From Tessaracoccus timonensis (GTDB lineage: Bacteria > Actinomycetota > Actinomycetes > Propionibacteriales > Propionibacteriaceae), in the NCBI RefSeq assembly GCF_900343145.1, contig NZ_LT996886.1, positions 2,666,001-2,730,000 on the forward strand: a stretch of 64,000 nt of DNA, in the 5' to 3' direction. The number at the start of each line of letters is the position of its first letter. The stretch's first letter is position 1. Positions 26,674-58,632 of this stretch are shown here, piece by piece. A program made the position numbers and the translations under genes. The notes under the pieces were generated by a model. That model was given only the letters and a program-made list of their open reading frames with translations. It ran no database searches and was not told the origin of the DNA.

Positions 26674-29526
26674 TTAGCTGCAGCCGCTGGTGGCGCCGCA
26701 ACCTTCACAGGCGTAGCAGGAACCCGACGGACGCATCTTGGTGCCGCAGGTCATGCACAGCGGCGCGTCGATGGCGTGGCCCGTCATGTTCTCCAGCAGT
26801 TCCGCTGTCGTGTGGGCGTCGATGAGCGACGGTTGGCGTGCACCGTCGACGTCAAAGTTGTCGGCGTCGTCGTTGCGCAGCTGCTCGTACTCGGGCAGTG
26901 AGGACTCATCCTCTTCCGAAACGTATTCGCCGGTTTGGACATACCGGGCACGCTCAGCCGCGGTGTAGATGCCCAGCTCGGAGCGGTCGTCGAAGTCGAG
27001 GTAATCGAGCGCGAGACGACGGAAGATGTAGTCCATGATGGACTGCGCGATGCGGATGTCCTGGTCGTCGGTCATGCCTGCGGGCTCGAACTTCAAGTTG
27101 GTGAACTTCTGCACGAAACTCTCCAGCGGCACGCCGTACTGCAGACCGATGGATACCGCGATCGAGAACGCATCCATCACGCCGGAGAGCGTCGAGCCCT
27201 GCTTACCCAAGCGGAGGAACACCTCACCCAGGCGGCCATCATCGTACGACGACGACGTCATGTAGCCTTCGGCACCGCTCACGGAGAAGCTGGTGGTGCG
27301 CGACATTCGCGACTTCGGCAGGCGTTCACGCTTCGGGCGGTACACCACCTTTTCAACGATCTTCTCTTCCACCACCTTGGCGGATTCGCTCTGCTTCTTG
27401 CCGTCGGAGAGCGGCTGGCCCACCTTGCAGTTGTCACGGTACACAGCCAGCGCCTTGAGCCCCAGCTTCCAGCCCTGCATGTACACGTCGGCGATGTCTT
27501 CGACGGTGGCCGACTCGGGGAGGTTTACCGTCTTAGAGATGGCGCCGGAGAGGAAGGGCTGGACCGCGGCCATCATGCGCACGTGACCCATAGGCTTGAT
27601 GGAGCGTTGCCCCATCGCGGTATCGAAGACTTCGTAATGGCGTTCCTCGAGGTGCGGAGCGCCAATGACGTGACCGTGTTCGGAGATGAAGTCGACGATC
27701 TCGGTGATCTGCGTCTCATCGTAGCCGAACTTCTGCAGCGCCCTCGGGATGGTCTGGTTCACGATCTGCATGGAACCGCCACCGACAAGCTTCTTGAACT
27801 TCACCAGGGAGAAGTCGGGCTCGATGCCGGTGGTGTCGCAGTCCATCATGAAGCCGATGGTGCCAGTGGGAGCCAGCAGTGAGGCCTGTGCGTTGCGGAA
27901 GCCATCGGCCGCGCCGAGTTCGATCACCTTCGCCCACTCGCGAGACGCAGCGGCGTGGATGCCCTGGTCTTCTGGCATCGGCTTGAAGCTCTCGTTGGCA
28001 GCCTGGTGCTTGCGCATGACTTGCTGGTGCGCGTCGGCGTTCTCTGCATACCCGGCGTACGGGCCAACCACTGCGGCGAGTTCCGCCGAGCGTCGGTACG
28101 ACGCGGCGGTCATCAACGACGTGATCGCTGCGGCCGTCGAGCGGCCACCCTCGGTGTCGTAACCCTTGCCTGTGGCCATGAGCAGCGCGCCGAGGTTGGC
28201 GTACCCGATGCCGAGCTGACGGAAGTTGCGCGTCGTCTCACCAATGGCCTGCGTTGGGAAATCCGCGAAGCAGATGGAGATATCCATGGCGGTGAAGATG
28301 AGCTCCACGGCCTTCACGAAGTGCTCAACGTCGAACGTGCCGTCGGCGTTCAGGAACTTCAGCAGGTTCAGCGACGCGAGGTTGCAGGAGCTGTTATCGA
28401 GGCTCATGTACTCCGAGCAGGGATTGGACGCCGTGATTCGGCCGGTGACGGGGTTGGTGTGCCAGGCGTTGATCGTGTCGTCGTACTGAATGCCGGGGTC
28501 TGCGCACTCCCACGCCGCCTTGGCGATCTTCTCAAATAGCTCCTTGGCATCCACCTCTTCGATGACTTCGCCCGTGTGCCGAGCCTTGAGACCGAACTTG
28601 CCTCCGGCTTCGACTGCCCGCATGAACTCATCGTTGACGCGCACCGAGTTATTGGCGTTTTGGTACTGCACCGACGTGATGTCTTTGCCACCGAGATCCA
28701 TGTCGAAGCCTGCATCACGCAGCGCGCGGATCTTGTCTTCCTCGCGAGCCTTCGTCTCGACGAACTCCTCGATGTCAGGGTGGTCTACGTCGAGCACCAC
28801 CATCTTCGCCGCCCGACGGGTAGCGCCGCCCGACTTGATGGTGCCGGCGGATGCGTCTGCACCGCGCATGAAGGACACCGGGCCGGACGCGGTGCCGCCG
28901 GAGCTCAGCAGCTCCTTCGAGGAGCGGATGCGGGAGAGGTTGAGGCCAGCGCCGGAGCCTCCCTTGAAGATGAATCCCTCTTCCTTGTACCAGTTGAGGA
29001 TGGATTCCATGGAGTCGTCGACGGAGAGGATGAAGCAGGCGCTCACCTGCTGCGGCGATGAGGTGCCGACGTTGAACCACACAGGAGAGTTGAACGCGAA
29101 GACCTGGTTCAGCAGCATCCAGGTGAGCTCTTCTTCGAAGATCTTGGCGTCGTCTTCAGTAGCGAAGTAGCCGAATTCGCGACCGGCTTCGACGTACTTG
29201 CCGACGACGCGGTCGATCAGCGTCTTGAGGCTAGCTTCACGCTGCGCGGTGCCTACAGCCCCGCGGAAGTACTTGGTAGTAACGATGGTGGAGGCGTTGA
29301 TGCTCCACGCCTTGGGGAATTCGACGCCATGCTGCTCGAAGACAATCTCGCCCGTCTTCCAGTTGGTCTGCACGACGTCGCGCAGCTCCCACTCTTGCTC
29401 GTCGTAGGGATGCACACCCTCTGTGGTGAATACTCGCTCGATCGTGAGGCCGCTGGGCGCCTTCTTCGTCGCGCGTGCTTTGCCTGTTGTACGCCCGCTG
29501 GTGCCTTTGGTGGCGTTCGCCGTCAT
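26674..29526 (-). CDS. nrdJ: Adenosylcobalamin-dependent (class II) ribonucleotide reductase
   Basis: Reduces ribonucleotides to deoxyribonucleotides with a B12-generated radical. The 950-residue length matches actinobacterial NrdJ. Recognisable parts are FNSPVWFNVGTSSPQQVSAC with the first active-site Cys, GSGAGLNLSRIRSSKE, and NPCSEYMSLDNSSCNLASLN, the specificity and radical-site loop. The C-terminal tail has zinc-like pairs CMTCGTKM and CYACEGCG. A basic 25-residue N-terminal extension precedes the catalytic part. GGGAGAG lies eight bases before the ATG. It is co-transcribed with nrdR and ends at a strong hairpin; NrdR boxes lie before nrdR. I see no other ribonucleotide reductase genes here. 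Confidence 0.96.
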   Translation of the reverse strand: MTANATKGTSGRTTGKARATKKAPSGLTIERVFTTEGVHPYDEQEWELRDVVQTNWKTGEIVFEQHGVEFPKAWSINASTIVTTKYFRGAVGTAQREASLKTLIDRVVGKYVEAGREFGYFATEDDAKIFEEELTWMLLNQVFAFNSPVWFNVGTSSPQQVSACFILSVDDSMESILNWYKEEGFIFKGGSGAGLNLSRIRSSKELLSSGGTASGPVSFMRGADASAGTIKSGGATRRAAKMVVLDVDHPDIEEFVETKAREEDKIRALRDAGFDMDLGGKDITSVQYQNANNSVRVNDEFMRAVEAGGKFGLKARHTGEVIEEVDAKELFEKIAKAAWECADPGIQYDDTINAWHTNPVTGRITASNPCSEYMSLDNSSCNLASLNLLKFLNADGTFDVEHFVKAVELIFTAMDISICFADFPTQAIGETTRNFRQLGIGYANLGALLMATGKGYDTEGGRSTAAAITSLMTAASYRRSAELAAVVGPYAGYAENADAHQQVMRKHQAANESFKPMPEDQGIHAAASREWAKVIELGAADGFRNAQASLLAPTGTIGFMMDCDTTGIEPDFSLVKFKKLVGGGSMQIVNQTIPRALQKFGYDETQITEIVDFISEHGHVIGAPHLEERHYEVFDTAMGQRSIKPMGHVRMMAAVQPFLSGAISKTVNLPESATVEDIADVYMQGWKLGLKALAVYRDNCKVGQPLSDGKKQSESAKVVEEKIVEKVVYRPKRERLPKSRMSRTTSFSVSGAEGYMTSSSYDDGRLGEVFLRLGKQGSTLSGVMDAFSIAVSIGLQYGVPLESFVQKFTNLKFEPAGMTDDQDIRIAQSIMDYIFRRLALDYLDFDDRSELGIYTAAERARYVQTGEYVSEEDESSLPEYEQLRNDDADNFDVDGARQPSLIDAHTTAELLENMTGHAIDAPLCMTCGTKMRPSGSCYACEGCGATSGCS

Positions 29527-29541
29527 CTCTTACTCTCCCAA

Positions 29542-30066
29542 TTAACCGATGAGTGGTTCTTGCATCGTGCCCCGGTGCTGTCTCCCGGAGCGGTGTGGCG
29601 TCGAGCCCTTCTGATGGTCGGACTCGACCTCGTTCATGTCGTCGATCTCGCGCACAAAATCGTCGACTGATTCGAAATTCTTGTAGACGGACGCAAACCG
29701 CAGGTAGGCCACGGAATCAAGCCGTGCCAACGGGCCAAGGATGGCCACGCCTACCTGCTCTGCCGGAATCTCGGCGACCCCTGCAGAACGAAGATTCTCT
29801 TCCACTTCTTGTCCGAGTGCCGCAAGTTGGTCAGGTGTGACGGGCCGGCCCTGGCAAGCCTTGGACACGCCTTTGATGACCTTCTCGCGGCTAAATGGCT
29901 CGATCACCCCGGAACGCTTCACCACTGTCAGGACTACCTGCTCCAGCGTGGTGAATTTCCTGTCACATGCGACGCAGGTGCGACGTCGACGAATTGCGGA
30001 ACCGTCCTCTGTTGCACGCGAATCTGACACTCGGGTGTCAGAGTTACGGCAGAACGGGCAGTGCAC
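29542..30066 (-). CDS. nrdR: Transcriptional repressor NrdR
   Basis: Zinc-ribbon/ATP-cone repressor that senses ATP/dATP and controls ribonucleotide reductase genes. The 174-residue product begins [17 protein letters not shown]; the second zinc pair is CVACDRKF. The ATP cone [20 protein letters not shown] follows. The C-terminus has about 25 extra polar residues compared with common NrdR. GTG is the start, as in many relatives. It sits 15 bp upstream of nrdJ in one operon, and paired NrdR boxes upstream predict autoregulation. Confidence 0.96.
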
Positions 30067-30127
30067 TTCGAGGACCTTTCCAGCGTGATCGGGCGACCCA
30101 GCTAATTACACCCGACACCCCCGAAAA

Positions 30128-30143
30128 ACACAAGCTCTTGGGG
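30128..30143 (-). promoter_or_regulatory. NrdR box 2 (downstream)
   Basis: Minus-strand CCCCAAGAGCTTGTGT, a partial match to the ACACTATATnTTGTGT-type NrdR consensus, best in its right half. It starts exactly 32 bp from the other box, the helical spacing known for NrdR pairs. Confidence 0.65.
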
Positions 30144-30159
30144 AATGACGTCGGTGTAA

Positions 30160-30175
30160 CTACTAGATATAGGGG
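30160..30175 (-). promoter_or_regulatory. NrdR box 1 (upstream)
   Basis: Minus-strand CCCCTATATCTAGTAG, close to the NrdR consensus centre TATATC. It covers the predicted transcription start just after the -10 at 30177-30182, so NrdR bound here would block RNA polymerase. Confidence 0.7.
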
Positions 30176-30176
30176 T

Positions 30177-30205
30177 ACGCTACGCAGCTAGCGACAGAAG
30201 GTCAA
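30177..30205 (-). promoter_or_regulatory. nrdR-nrdJ promoter
   Basis: -35 TTGACC (30200-30205), 17-bp spacer, -10 TAGCGT (30177-30182) on the minus strand. The leader to the nrdR GTG is about 100 nt and contains both NrdR boxes. Confidence 0.65.
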
Positions 30206-30224
30206 CAACGACGCGCGGGGTGAT

Positions 30225-30554
30225 TCAGGGCTCGACGTGCGCCCACGCGGCCGCATCGGAAGCATCCGTCGTGGCGTGCATGTCGGCAACTGCAGACACG
30301 TAGCCGGTGACCCCAACAACGCCGCCCGCGACCGCGATGAACCCAATGGCAAGCGACTTGATACGCAGACTCCACGTCGACGTCAGCATGCCAGCACAAC
30401 GGACCTCACGGCGATCCACGACGCAGGACGCCACCGTCTGACGAGGGAGCCCACGGCTGACCCGCCTGGGGTGCGCCTCAGCGATATGGAAATTCGGGCG
30501 CCTCACAGGTGCGTGCGACCGACGAGCGGAGAGATTCTTCATGACGGTGCTCAC
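30225..30554 (-). CDS. Small single-TM protein divergent from lexA, SOS-controlled; possible division inhibitor
   Basis: A 109-residue protein: an Arg-rich cytoplasmic N-terminus (1-64), one membrane helix (about 66-88, IKSLAIGFIAVAGGVVGVTGY), and about 20 residues outside. GTG at 30554 is the start, with GAGGAG five bases upstream. A near-perfect SOS box lies 20 bp before it. In Mycobacterium (Rv2719c/ChiZ), Corynebacterium (DivS) and Bacillus (YneA) the gene beside lexA encodes an SOS-induced single-TM protein that slows cell division. This one shares position, basic N-terminus and TM but lacks the LysM domain of ChiZ and YneA. Function is inferred from context. Confidence 0.7.
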   Translation of the reverse strand: MSTVMKNLSARRSHAPVRRPNFHIAEAHPRRVSRGLPRQTVASCVVDRREVRCAGMLTSTWSLRIKSLAIGFIAVAGGVVGVTGYVSAVADMHATTDASDAAAWAHVEP

Positions 30555-30573
30555 AGCGACTCCTCACAGCGTG

Positions 30574-30589
30574 TCAAACATTTGTTCGA
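30574..30589. promoter_or_regulatory. SOS box for the small membrane gene
   Basis: TCAAACATTTGTTCGA, one mismatch from the actinobacterial LexA site TCGAAC-N4-GTTCGA, 20 bp before the GTG at 30554. Confidence 0.85.
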
Positions 30590-30617
30590 TTAGATAGTAG
30601 CTCATCGATTCGAGGTA

Positions 30618-30633
30618 TGCAACACATGTTCGA
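30618..30633. promoter_or_regulatory. Second SOS box in the lexA divergent region
   Basis: TGCAACACATGTTCGA: perfect right half GTTCGA, two mismatches in the left half. It lies between the other two sites. Confidence 0.6.
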
Positions 30634-30727
30634 TAGTCCACATTTCCTCGACACTGGACACCCCATCAGAGACCTCTGACAAAACTGCACAATGCGCCGA
30701 CACGCCCACTCAAACCCGGCGCCGTTT

Positions 30728-30743
30728 TCGAACATGTGTAGGG
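30728..30743. promoter_or_regulatory. SOS half-site overlapping the lexA -10
   Basis: TCGAACATGTGTAGGG: perfect left half TCGAAC, degenerate right half, running into the -10 hexamer of lexA. This supports autorepression. Confidence 0.6.
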
Positions 30744-30744
30744 T
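30739..30744 (+). promoter_or_regulatory. -10 hexamer for leaderless lexA
   Basis: TAGGGT, 7 nt before the ATG at 30752; overlaps the SOS half-site. Confidence 0.6.
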
Positions 30745-30751
30745 ATGTGGC

Positions 30752-31477
30752 ATGACGACCCCGAATAAGCCACGTGGCAGCGGACGCCCCTCGCGGGCCG
30801 ACATCGAAGCGGAGTTCGGCACTGGGGGGCCAGTTGAACCCGGCCTCACTCCCCGTGCATCGAAGCTCCTGGGCATCATCCGGGAATCCATCAACCGCCA
30901 CGGGTATCCCCCCAGCGTGCGCGAGATGGCGGAGCTAGCCGGGCTGTCCTCGCCGTCGAGTGTCACCTACCAGCTGAAAGCACTCGAGAAGGCCGGCTAC
31001 CTCCGTCGTGACCCGAACCGCACCCGGGCCATGATGGTGATGGATCCTCTCACTGGAGAGCCCGAGGCCGCTGCGCCCACAACAGACGCCGTCGAAGCAC
31101 CCGGCGTCGTCTCAACACCTCTGGTCGGGCGTATCGCAGCCGGTGGCCCCATCCTTGCGGAGCAACATATCGAAGACGTGTTCGCGCTGCCTGAACAGCT
31201 CGTCGGGCACGGTGAGTTCTTCATGCTCGAGGTGAAGGGCGACTCCATGATCGACGCCGCCATTTGCGAGGGCGACTGGGTGGTAGTTCGTCGCCAGCCC
31301 ACCGCCGTCAACGGCGACATCGTCGCCGCACTGCTCGACGACGAAGCCACCGTGAAAACCTTCAAGCGTGACGGCAACCAGGTGTGGCTACTTCCACACA
31401 ACGAGCGCTACTCCCCCATTGACGGCAACCACGCCACCATCATGGGCAAGATCGTCGCGGTCATGCGCCGCGTGTAA
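30752..31477 (+). CDS. lexA: SOS repressor LexA
   Basis: Repressor of DNA-damage genes that cleaves itself when bound to RecA filaments. The 241-residue product has a winged HTH ([20 protein letters not shown], then [18 protein letters not shown]). The Ala-Gly cleavage site is in [12 protein letters not shown]. The catalytic Ser is in GDSMIDAAI and the Lys in ATVKTF. I place the start at the ATG at 30752, 7 nt after a -10 hexamer; an in-frame ATG at 30734 would fall inside the promoter. A 30-residue N-terminal extension before the HTH is usual in actinobacteria. It is divergent from the small membrane gene. Confidence 0.97.
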
Positions 31478-45392: not shown

Positions 45393-45881
45393 TCACCATT
45401 CTTCGTCGTACAAATCTACCAGCGTCTCATTCGTCACCTGCATCACAGCGCCCGGCCCGAAACCCCGTCGAGCGAGTGCTCCGGCCAAACGACGCTTGGC
45501 CACATGGGGTTCGAGCCCAGACAAGCTGCGCATTTTCCGCTGCGCAACCGCACGGGCTGCGTCAAGCTCGGCGTCATCGTCAATCTCGTCCAAAGCAGCC
45601 TGGGCATGCTCGTCGGGCACGCCCTTATTCCGAAGCTCTTGACGGATGCGGCGCTTACCGTGGTGGGAGAACGACGAGCGACTCGCCACCAGCATCGATG
45701 CGAACTGCGCGTCGTCCAGCAAACCCACCTCGGTGAAGCGCCCGCATAGTTCGTCGATGAGTTCGTCTGGCACGTTGCGTTTGGCCAAGGCTGTGCGCAG
45801 TTCGGCCTCAGAGCGAGGCCGAATGCTCAGCAGGTCGAGGGCGATCTTGCGTGCGAACTCGATGTCAGAAATCGACTTCAC
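45393..45881 (-). CDS. recX: RecA regulator RecX
   Basis: Small helical protein that inhibits or modulates RecA filaments. The product is 162 residues if it starts at the GTG at 45881. Its three-helix repeats include [19 protein letters not shown] and [14 protein letters not shown], with a C-terminal copy near [17 protein letters not shown]. The gene overlaps recA by 17 bp from this start. A GTG at 45899 is also in frame, but its only ribosome site is immediately adjacent. Coupling to recA is expected. Confidence 0.9.
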
Positions 45882-46914
45882 CTGTTTCCGGATCGACACC
45901 CTCCGGCACGTCCTCGGAGCCATCGATGCCGAGGTGAAGGCGGATACGACGCTCCAGTTCCTCGGCCACGTCGGGGTGTTCCTTCAGGTAGTTACGGGCG
46001 TTTTCCTTGCCTTGGCCAAGCTGATCGGATTCGTAGGTGAACCAAGCGCCAGCCTTACGCACGATGCCGGCGTCGACGCCCATGTCAAGCAGAGAGCCCT
46101 CGCGGGAGATGCCTTGGCCGTACATGATGTCGAATTCGGCCTGCTTGAACGGCGGAGCCACCTTGTTCTTGACCACCTTGACGCGGGTGCGGTTGCCCAC
46201 CATCTCGGTGCCATCTTTCAGCGTCTCGATGCGGCGAACGTCGAGGCGCACCGACGAATAGAACTTGAGCGCCCGGCCACCCGTGGTGGTTTCGGGGTTG
46301 CCGAACATGACACCGATCTTCTCGCGAAGCTGGTTGATGAAGATGGCTGTGGTGTGGGCGTTCTTGAGCGCGCCCGTCATTTTGCGCAGCGCCTGGCTCA
46401 TGAGGCGGGCCTGGAGACCGACGTGAGAATCGCCCATTTCGCCCTCGATTTCGGCGCGCGGGGTAAGGGCCGCCACCGAGTCGACGACGATGAGCGCCAG
46501 CGCGCCGGAACGCACGAGCGTGTCGGCAATCTCGAGTGCCTGCTCACCGTTATCTGGCTGGGACACGAGCAGCTCGTCGGTGTTCACCCCGAGTTTCTGC
46601 GCGTAGTCTGGATCAAGTGCATGCTCGGCGTCGATAAAGGCACAGATGCCGCCCTCCCGCTGTGCATTCGCGATGGCGTGCAGCGCCACGGTGGTTTTAC
46701 CGCTCGACTCGGGACCGTAGATCTCGACGATGCGCCCGCGGGGAAGCCCCCCGATACCGAGCGCGACATCGAGTGCCACGGACCCGGTGGGAATCACGTC
46801 GACGGGGAGCCGTGTTTCTGCGCCAAGGCGCATGACGGAGCCTTTGCCGTGGGTTTTCTCGATCTGGGCGAGTGCGTTTTGGAGCGCCTTCTCGCGATCT
46901 GCGACTGCTGCCAT
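45865..46914 (-). CDS. recA: Recombinase RecA
   Basis: Strand-exchange ATPase and LexA co-protease. The 349-residue length is typical. Walker A is [16 protein letters not shown], Walker B is [12 protein letters not shown], and L2 is in [20 protein letters not shown]. The acidic C-terminus is also normal. ATG at 46914 has AGAGGAAC about six bases upstream. An SOS box lies about 120 bp upstream, next to a TACGCT -10, leaving a roughly 105-nt leader with a perfect hairpin. Confidence 0.98.
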
Positions 46915-47032: not shown

Positions 47033-47048
47033 CCGAACATCTGTTCGA
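47033..47048. promoter_or_regulatory. SOS box of recA
   Basis: CCGAACATCTGTTCGA, one mismatch from TCGAAC-N4-GTTCGA. It directly abuts the minus-strand -10 TACGCT (47027-47032), so bound LexA would occlude RNA polymerase. Confidence 0.88.
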
Positions 47049-57233: not shown

Positions 57234-57249
57234 TCAAACGTTTGTTCGG
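57234..57249. promoter_or_regulatory. SOS box of the 13E12/HNH gene
   Basis: TCAAACGTTTGTTCGG, two mismatches from TCGAAC-N4-GTTCGA and nearly identical to the box at 30574. It lies 28 bp before the ATG. Confidence 0.75.
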
Positions 57250-57276: not shown

Positions 57277-58632
57277 ATGATGTCCGACGCAGCACCCCTC
57301 GCATTCGCCGCCATGGTTCACGCGCGCCACGCCGCCTGCGCCGCCGAAGTTGCAGAAATCGTCGCGCTCCTCGAAGCGTCCGACACCTACGTGCTCGAAG
57401 AAGACATGACGCTACCCAAGGCCCTCCGCATCAAACGCCTCTCTTCCGGGCGCGACGGAGTGCGCGGCCCGTCGGAAGCGTTCGTGCTCGAAGCGAGCGC
57501 CGCTACCGGCATGAGCTTTTCCGGCATGCGCGAGCGCGTCTCCCAGGCCCTCAGCATTCGCACTCGGCATCCGCGCATCTGGCAGCTGTTTATCTCCGGC
57601 AGTATTCAGTGGTGGATGGCAATCAAGGTTGAGGAAGCCACCCAGAAACTGCCTTGTTCGGCGGCCATGGACGTCGATCGCCGCGCCTCGCACTGGCTGG
57701 GCATCAACTCGGTGTGGACGCTGTTCGAGCAGCTGCCTGTGTGGGTTACCGAAGCCGACGTCGAGGGCGCTCAGCGTCGGGCCCGCATCGCTGCCCAAGA
57801 GCGCTTCGTGCACGTTGGGCGCTTCGAAGACGACCACGTCGGCATCTTCGGGAAGGTCGCGGCGGCCGACGGCGTGTTGTTCGATCAAGCCCTCGATCAG
57901 ATCGCCGCCACGCTTCCCGAGCCCGAGGTTCCCGACGAACTCGAAGCGCACGAGCGTGCTTCCTTCATCCGTGGCCAGCGACGTGCTGCCGCCTTCGGCA
58001 TCTTCGCGCAGCAAGCTGTCGGTCAAGAGTCGTTGATGAGCGTTGAGATGGTGGTGCACGTTCCTGCGGAGCGCTCCGACGACGAAGCCGCTCTGGCAGC
58101 TGACGGCGCGACCCCACTCGGATCAGCGGCCTATGTCGAGGGTTGGGGGCACTTGCTCACCTCGACGCTGCCGGAGTTCCTGTCCGGTTCGAACGTCACG
58201 GTGCGGCCCGTACTCGACCCGAACCTGATTCCTGATGCGCCCGGCAGCACGCCGAGCAGCCGTCAGCTCTGCGCCTTGCAGGTTCGCAATCCGCGTTCGG
58301 TGTTTCCGTTCTCCGCCACCAAGGCGAAGCATTGCGACGTCGACCACACCGTCGCCTACTCCCCCAGCCGCGACGCGGGCGCCACGAGCATGGCCAACCT
58401 CGGGCCTCTCGACAGACGTGCGCACCGTATGAAAACCGCTGGCCACTGGCACCTGCAGCAGCCCGAGCCCGGCGTCTATCACTGGACGTCACCGCTGGGT
58501 TACCAATATCTGGTGACGGGCCGGGGCAGCGTCTGCACCCAAATACCCGACGTCCCCATCGCCCCCATCCCGGAGCTGCCGCCACAGCCACCCGTTGACG
58601 AGCCTCCACCCGACTGGGCCCGCGCTGCGTAA
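57277..58632 (+). CDS. DUF222 / 13E12-repeat protein with degenerate HNH domain
   Basis: A 451-residue member of the actinobacterial 13E12 family: an N-terminal DUF222 helical domain (about 20-330) and a C-terminal HNH-like domain (about 350-410). The HNH core keeps CDVDHTVAYSP and SMANLGPLDRRAHRMKT. The cysteines that normally hold zinc before and after the core (C-FPGC and LCRRHH types) are replaced, reading VFPFSA and LDRRAH. Cleavage is therefore doubtful. A Pro-rich tail follows. AAGGAGAA lies five bases before the ATG. 13E12 genes of M. tuberculosis include LexA-controlled members, matching the SOS box here. Confidence 0.85.
   Translation: MMSDAAPLAFAAMVHARHAACAAEVAEIVALLEASDTYVLEEDMTLPKALRIKRLSSGRDGVRGPSEAFVLEASAATGMSFSGMRERVSQALSIRTRHPRIWQLFISGSIQWWMAIKVEEATQKLPCSAAMDVDRRASHWLGINSVWTLFEQLPVWVTEADVEGAQRRARIAAQERFVHVGRFEDDHVGIFGKVAAADGVLFDQALDQIAATLPEPEVPDELEAHERASFIRGQRRAAAFGIFAQQAVGQESLMSVEMVVHVPAERSDDEAALAADGATPLGSAAYVEGWGHLLTSTLPEFLSGSNVTVRPVLDPNLIPDAPGSTPSSRQLCALQVRNPRSVFPFSATKAKHCDVDHTVAYSPSRDAGATSMANLGPLDRRAHRMKTAGHWHLQQPEPGVYHWTSPLGYQYLVTGRGSVCTQIPDVPIAPIPELPPQPPVDEPPPDWARAA

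Follow-up and report, generated by a model that had tools for sequence, protein, structure and literature searches.

The occupants of the lexA-linked slot whose function has been tested, namely DivS, ChiZ, YneA and SosA, are division inhibitors. Overexpression of divS suppresses division, and the LysM domain of ChiZ appears to be dispensable, according to PMC3989709; DivS and SosA are described as lacking LysM (PMC6851548). The N-terminal region of ChiZ together with its helix is reported to be sufficient for filamentation (PMC7355643, citing earlier work). As described in PMC13396833, YneA requires both its LysM and glycan binding; its helix alone reaches the septum, via FtsW TM7, yet the helix without LysM does not inhibit division. 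The LysM-less SosA is stated to stop septum closure, with conserved residues in its outside segment being essential (PMC6851548). As for the step affected, DivS and ChiZ are reported to reduce the number of Z-rings (PMC3989709), and YneA and SosA to block septal wall synthesis or the closure of the septum (PMC13396833, PMC6851548).

We describe here an open reading frame (ORF) in the same slot of Tessaracoccus timonensis, which most likely represents an additional relative of known inhibitors such as DivS and ChiZ, and not a new kind of protein.

The lexA-divergent locus and its predicted LexA operators

The ORF lies in a window of 64,000 nucleotides (contig NZ_LT996886.1) of a 2.76 Mb genome belonging to the Tessaracoccus/Arachnia genus group of the family Propionibacteriaceae (f1). 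It occupies positions 30225..30554 on the minus strand, stop codon included, starts with GTG and encodes 109 residues, predicted to form a small SOS-controlled membrane protein and a candidate for a division inhibitor. A Shine-Dalgarno-like GAGGAG, read from the letters at 30560..30565 of the same strand, precedes the GTG by 5 nt. The ORF is divergent from lexA (30752..31477, plus strand; LexA_DNA_bind and Peptidase_S24 domains, TIGR00498), the ATG of which was placed at 30752 by reading, and it lies upstream of nrdR (29542..30066, minus strand). The closest match of this LexA among the named contigs was that of Tessaracoccus oleiagri (80%), with Arachnia propionica also among the matches.

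Three parts can be distinguished in the protein, all on the minus strand. Residues 1-66 (30357..30554) form an Arg-rich region that includes Cys44 and has 12 Arg and 2 Lys against 3 acidic residues; they are predicted to be cytoplasmic, the side being deduced from charge. The only hydrophobic segment, with a hydropathy maximum of 2.0 at residues 68-86 (30297..30353), is a predicted membrane helix. The remaining 23 residues (30228..30296), ending in AAAWAHVEP, make up a predicted extracytoplasmic tail without Arg or Lys and with four acidic residues. The positive-inside rule serves as a guide to membrane topology; by this rule, the basic N-side and acidic C-side of the helix suggest an N-in, C-out orientation.

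No Pfam or NCBIfam family matched the protein at E≤1, in agreement with the claim that it carries no LysM, and no catalytic or DNA-binding family was found. Thirty-five of the 38 genus proteins, aligned for the family models (alignment A1; L029, L050 and L080 left out), gave weak and scattered matches with at most two members per family, and a PDB profile search with the genus profile returned no chains at E≤1. The preliminary description of this locus had reported the Arg-rich frame with one helix, the GAGGAG-GTG start and the divergence from lexA, all of which are present; the short tail, given there as about 20 residues, counts 23.

The LexA box consensus used for scoring is TCGAACANNTGTTCGA, with 14 fixed positions. 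The gap between the ORF and lexA contains three LexA-type boxes: box 1 (30574..30589; 13/14), reading TCGAACAAATGTTTGA on the minus strand and located 19 bp upstream of the ORF start; box 2 (30618..30633; 12/14), 44 bp from box 1, which would overlap the -35 element; and box 3 (30728..30743; 11/14), which adjoins lexA. The near-perfect SOS box that the preliminary description had seen 20 bp upstream is there, but as one of three. When 3000 stretches of 200 bp were drawn at random from the window, 2.4% contained any box of at least 11/14. Genome-wide, six sites within one mismatch were found in 2.76 Mb versus one for the reversed pattern; three of the six lie in the ORF promoter, in the recA promoter and upstream of a gene for a DUF222 protein (L248). 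The recA gene (45865-46914) is located in the same window, with its 13/14 box (47033-47048) 119 nt upstream of the start.

A further LexA-like box (57234-57249; 11/14) was noticed 43 nt upstream of another DUF222 protein gene (57277-58632). As boxes precede two DUF222 genes, this one and L248 elsewhere in the genome, DUF222 proteins may be SOS genes in this organism.

The operators recur in the genus. At least one box of at least 11/14 was present in all 38 loci and at least two in 37. In the 110 bp preceding the gene, 37 of the 38 loci hold two boxes of at least 10/14, and L023 holds one. The spacing of these twin operators is 42-47 bp in 36 of the 37 loci and 30 bp in L049, and a TA...T hexamer can be seen by eye between the two boxes. 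In the window, the corresponding hexamer, TACTAT (30594..30599, minus strand), a possible -10 element also read by eye, stands 17 nt from TTGCAT (30617-30622). These -10 and -35 elements are a reading of the letters, since a consensus promoter scan found no sigma-70-type site over threshold in 30100-30800; with TTGCAT-N17-TACTAT so read, box 2 would fall on the -35 element and box 1 close to the start site. The case for LexA control thus lies at the operator level, in three predicted boxes.

Compared by description, the ORF protein shares with DivS of Corynebacterium glutamicum (cgR_1759/cg2113), reported as SOS-induced, the proximity to lexA, the single membrane segment, here a predicted one, and the lack of LysM (PMC6851548, PMC3989709). 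Five genomes of genus g112 (probably Corynebacterium) show by eye the same plan, without LysM and without the tail motif described below. ChiZ of Mycobacterium tuberculosis (Rv2719c) is likewise a lexA neighbour (PMC6851548); its first 64 residues are described as disordered and cytoplasmic, followed by one helix and an outside C-terminus (PMC7355643). However, ChiZ continues with a disordered linker and a LysM of 53 residues, whereas the ORF protein ends 23 residues past its helix. According to PMC6851548, SosA of Staphylococcus aureus is also divergent from lexA, with one helix, no LysM and a conserved outside segment, but it consists of 77 residues with the helix at 10-30, and it comes from a different phylum; the ORF protein, with 109 residues and its helix at 68-86, does not fit this plan by description. 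The position of the SosA helix leaves no room for a long Arg-rich N-terminus. YneA of Bacillus subtilis, which is SOS-induced, resembles the ORF in being a lexA neighbour with one helix, a predicted one in the ORF protein. To our knowledge, YneA has no long basic N-terminus. It further differs from the ORF protein in its need for LysM and glycan binding (PMC13396833). In sum, a predicted single-pass membrane protein behind LexA boxes is best read as an occupant of the ChiZ/DivS slot, as had been proposed.

The neighbourhood leaves room for another reading, namely an SOS-controlled membrane protein with a different task, such as an effector acting on the envelope or membrane potential, or a protein that regulates the output of LexA or of NrdR. 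The nrdR gene lies downstream and is followed, likewise on the minus strand, by nrdJ (26674..29526), encoding a class II ribonucleotide reductase, so co-transcription could tie the ORF to dNTP supply. We regard such a task as unlikely, given that the tested occupants of the slot inhibit division, at least as their sources describe them, and that the ORF protein matched no catalytic or DNA-binding family, the scattered weak matches being confined to relatives.

Absence of LysM and the short tail

The occurrence of LysM in a lexA-linked slot, characteristic of ChiZ and YneA, was surveyed in 197 loci (39 from the genus, 51 from other Propionibacteriaceae, 67 from the class and 40 from family f5, probably Mycobacteriaceae). 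An HMM built from 81 slot proteins was applied, with a cut-off of 15 bits, to all six frames of as much as 1.8 kb of sequence preceding lexA, which makes the counts independent of gene calls; loci with fewer than 600 bases upstream of lexA were skipped. The Propionibacteriaceae loci are part of the 104 genomes, out of 117, with a LexA match, and the class and f5 samples are partial too. No LysM was detected upstream of lexA in the 39 genus loci (one genome counted twice), nor in the 51 loci of other Propionibacteriaceae; in the genome of the window (L021), no frame upstream of lexA scored above 15 bits. LysM was found in 53 of the 67 class loci and 24 of the 40 f5 loci, presence counts that are not independent because the matches include proteins used to train the HMM. 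In a set of named organisms, 7 of 22 loci had LysM, four of those without it repeating genus loci. The plan seen across the class comprises a basic N-terminus (often ...RLTRRGR), one helix, a linker and LysM; slot proteins without LysM are found in Propionibacteriaceae and also in several genera of f5. The LysM family PF01476 does occur twice in the genome of the window, within one long frame away from lexA.

The absence of LysM is the rule in the lexA slots of Propionibacteriaceae, and with counts of 0/39, 0/51 and only 24/40 in f5 it is a lineage trait and not a local reduction. The preliminary description had presented the ORF as a new, minimal version of the checkpoint; this was overstated, as LysM is missing from the other surveyed loci of the family and, as far as PMC6851548 describes them, already from DivS and SosA.

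Some lineages stood out in the course of the survey. In family f20 (probably Streptomyces relatives), LysM was absent from the 1.4 kb preceding lexA in all seven loci L161-L167, unlike most class loci. In the f5 genus g134 (L234, L236, L237), the slot LysM seems by eye to be eroded in one species and truncated close to its first loop in two others, although L234 is still scored as LysM by the slot HMM; this suggests that LysM can be truncated in this way and is possibly a loss in progress. Finally, 13 of the 117 Propionibacteriaceae genomes gave no LexA match at 1e-20, eleven of them in two genera (five in g4 and six in g14); two g14 genomes do have a match, and LexA is possibly divergent or lost in the genomes without one.

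The genus proteins end in a short tail with the consensus ...DPAxxYVAGDPAWAHV near the C-terminus. W-x-H-V is present in 34 of the 38 proteins and the exact GDPAWAHV in 21; the tail of the window protein keeps WAHV, without G-D. W-x-H-V is missing in L023, L024, L046 (short tail) and L029 (G006), where the tail looks frame-shifted relative to the genus motif, and no gene called in other Propionibacteriaceae contains it. These counts are to be read with the automatic ORF choice in mind, which gave a small bonus to tails with G-D or G-E, although the genus ORFs are also present in the list made without this bonus; automatic gene calling returned no gene at 19 loci and gave a few genes that look wrong, L099, L105, L162 and L204 among them.

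On the other side of the helix, Cys44 is kept in 35 of the 38 genus proteins. A pattern [AS]-C-x-[VL] preceding the helix, chosen after the data were seen and with nine loci dropped beforehand, was observed in 26/38 genus proteins, 11/48 other Propionibacteriaceae, 4/17 named organisms (one a genus repeat), 4/40 of family f5 (all four LysM-less) and 0/56 class proteins; it seems to go with the absence of LysM.

It could be supposed that the short tail is the stub of a lost LysM, GDPAWAHV being the first LysM loop (PGDTLWSIA), kept for contact with septal glycan. The best hhalign alignment of a tail profile from 35 of the 38 genus proteins (L023, L029 and L046 left out) indeed sets aGdpAW on pGeTLW in register, in g134 the slot LysM shows, by eye, erosion or truncation close to that very loop, and residues D46 and T47 of the YneA LysM, taken as the same loop, are reported to be needed for activity (PMC13396833). 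However, 76 of 150 column-shuffled controls reached the hhalign score, and for this reason the register is kept as a lead and the stub is not supported. Moreover, none of the 38 genus proteins scored above 2.9 bits with the slot LysM HMM, the match with that score lying outside the tail; W-x-H-V is absent from the genes called in the other Propionibacteriaceae, and the tail of the window protein itself has no G-D. An origin of the tail from LysM is accordingly improbable, to about the same degree as a task unrelated to division.

Conservation in Tessaracoccus and Arachnia

The reading of the ORF as a member of the division-inhibitor slot is accompanied by a well-conserved position. In the sample of 39 genus genomes, LexA was matched in 38 (all but G025), and each of these 38 carries, between nrdR and lexA, a short ORF that encodes a hydrophobic segment. 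The frame is conserved in these close relatives, so the objection that the preliminary description had raised at the sequence level does not apply. A protein search by sequence recovered the gene in 15 of the 39 genomes, including that of the window, so that for all but the nearest relatives kinship is judged from position and architecture.

All 38 genus loci have the gene frame open, against 31, 16, 13, 1 and 1 for the other five frames. For the two closest pairs of the genus, dN/dS comes to 0.39 and 0.35; it is 0.50 to 0.58 between the window protein and its clade-mates L022, L023 and L024, and as high as 0.95 among the 25 genus pairs with the lowest dS. Given the open frame and these ratios, the ORF is a genuine gene that evolves fast and bears signs of purifying selection. 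Shine-Dalgarno-like sites are kept in the genus, as are the twin operators. An antisense ORF (30237-30593, plus strand, 118 residues) matches no family and was not favoured as a gene; one antisense frame of the gene is open in 31 of the 38 loci, which we take to be the mirror frame commonly seen in GC-rich genes.

In the LexA tree, constructed from 37 of the 38 genus sequences and three outsiders (outsider L062 was left out, as was L082), L021-L024 form one clade (support 100/99), with L024 on a long branch. The omitted L082 (G005) has one TGA inside its LexA frame. Identity is distributed differently over the protein at the two levels, with region borders set by the analyst. Across the genus, the mean pairwise identity rises from 33% in the N-terminus and 35% in the helix to 46% in the near tail and 57% in the distal tail. 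Within the clade of the window (L021-L024), the N-terminus has 29%, the helix 51%, the near tail 22% (3 pairs) and the distal tail 24%; without L024, the helix reaches 59% and the tail 20-22%. The earlier proposal that the protein acts through its membrane segment consequently agrees with the clade, where the helix is the best-kept part, but not with the genus as a whole, where the distal tail is.

That the ORF is a decaying, functionless leftover of a LysM-bearing inhibitor, as could be read from the missing LysM, the diverged tail and raised dN/dS of the window clade and the four proteins without W-x-H-V, is highly improbable in view of the frame open throughout the genus, a dN/dS under 0.4 for the two closest pairs, the retained Shine-Dalgarno-like sites and twin operators and the helix conserved at 51% in that same clade.

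Proposed function in a LysM-free checkpoint

The ORF is probably the Tessaracoccus/Arachnia occupant of the lexA-divergent division-inhibitor slot, working in the manner of DivS and ChiZ, and we hold with slightly more confidence still that its product delays division. In undamaged cells, LexA bound to the two operators flanking or overlapping the promoter would keep the amount of protein low. Upon damage, activation of LexA self-cleavage by RecA would allow the protein to be produced alongside LexA and RecA. Its Arg-rich part would then remain in the cytoplasm, with one helix crossing the membrane and the short acidic tail outside. By analogy with the known inhibitors, the helix, perhaps together with the N-terminus, may contact membrane proteins of the divisome (FtsW, FtsQ or FtsI) and so localize to the septum, where the protein would delay septation until repair. 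The partner and the step of the block are named here from that likeness. The short tail might provide a contact or govern turnover, in place of glycan binding by LysM.

The N-terminus and helix are favoured as the active part because the window protein possesses the parts reported as sufficient in ChiZ; that they are the main one is a tentative view, which we hold a little less firmly than its reverse. The simplest model, with the helix acting alone, is countered by YneA, which without LysM is described as present at the septum and yet not inhibiting. A broader scheme, which we offer as possible but doubtful, would have Propionibacteriaceae dropping LysM family-wide, with GDPAWAHV and the cytoplasmic Cys motif replacing it in Tessaracoccus/Arachnia and the checkpoint becoming purely a matter of protein-protein contact with FtsW, FtsQ or FtsI.

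In the open-access literature, judged mainly by titles, no description of a lexA-linked slot protein in Propionibacteriaceae was found, and the present locus probably extends the lexA-linked division checkpoint to this family. The need for LysM is disputed, being asserted for YneA (PMC13396833) and set against the reported sufficiency of N-terminus and helix in ChiZ (PMC7355643). Natural LysM-free proteins, which in one genus share a conserved short tail, offer small test objects for the part that stops septation. If the checkpoint in Propionibacteriaceae is indeed LysM-free and based on contact only, divisome targeting would be separated there from glycan binding, both of which YneA is described as needing.
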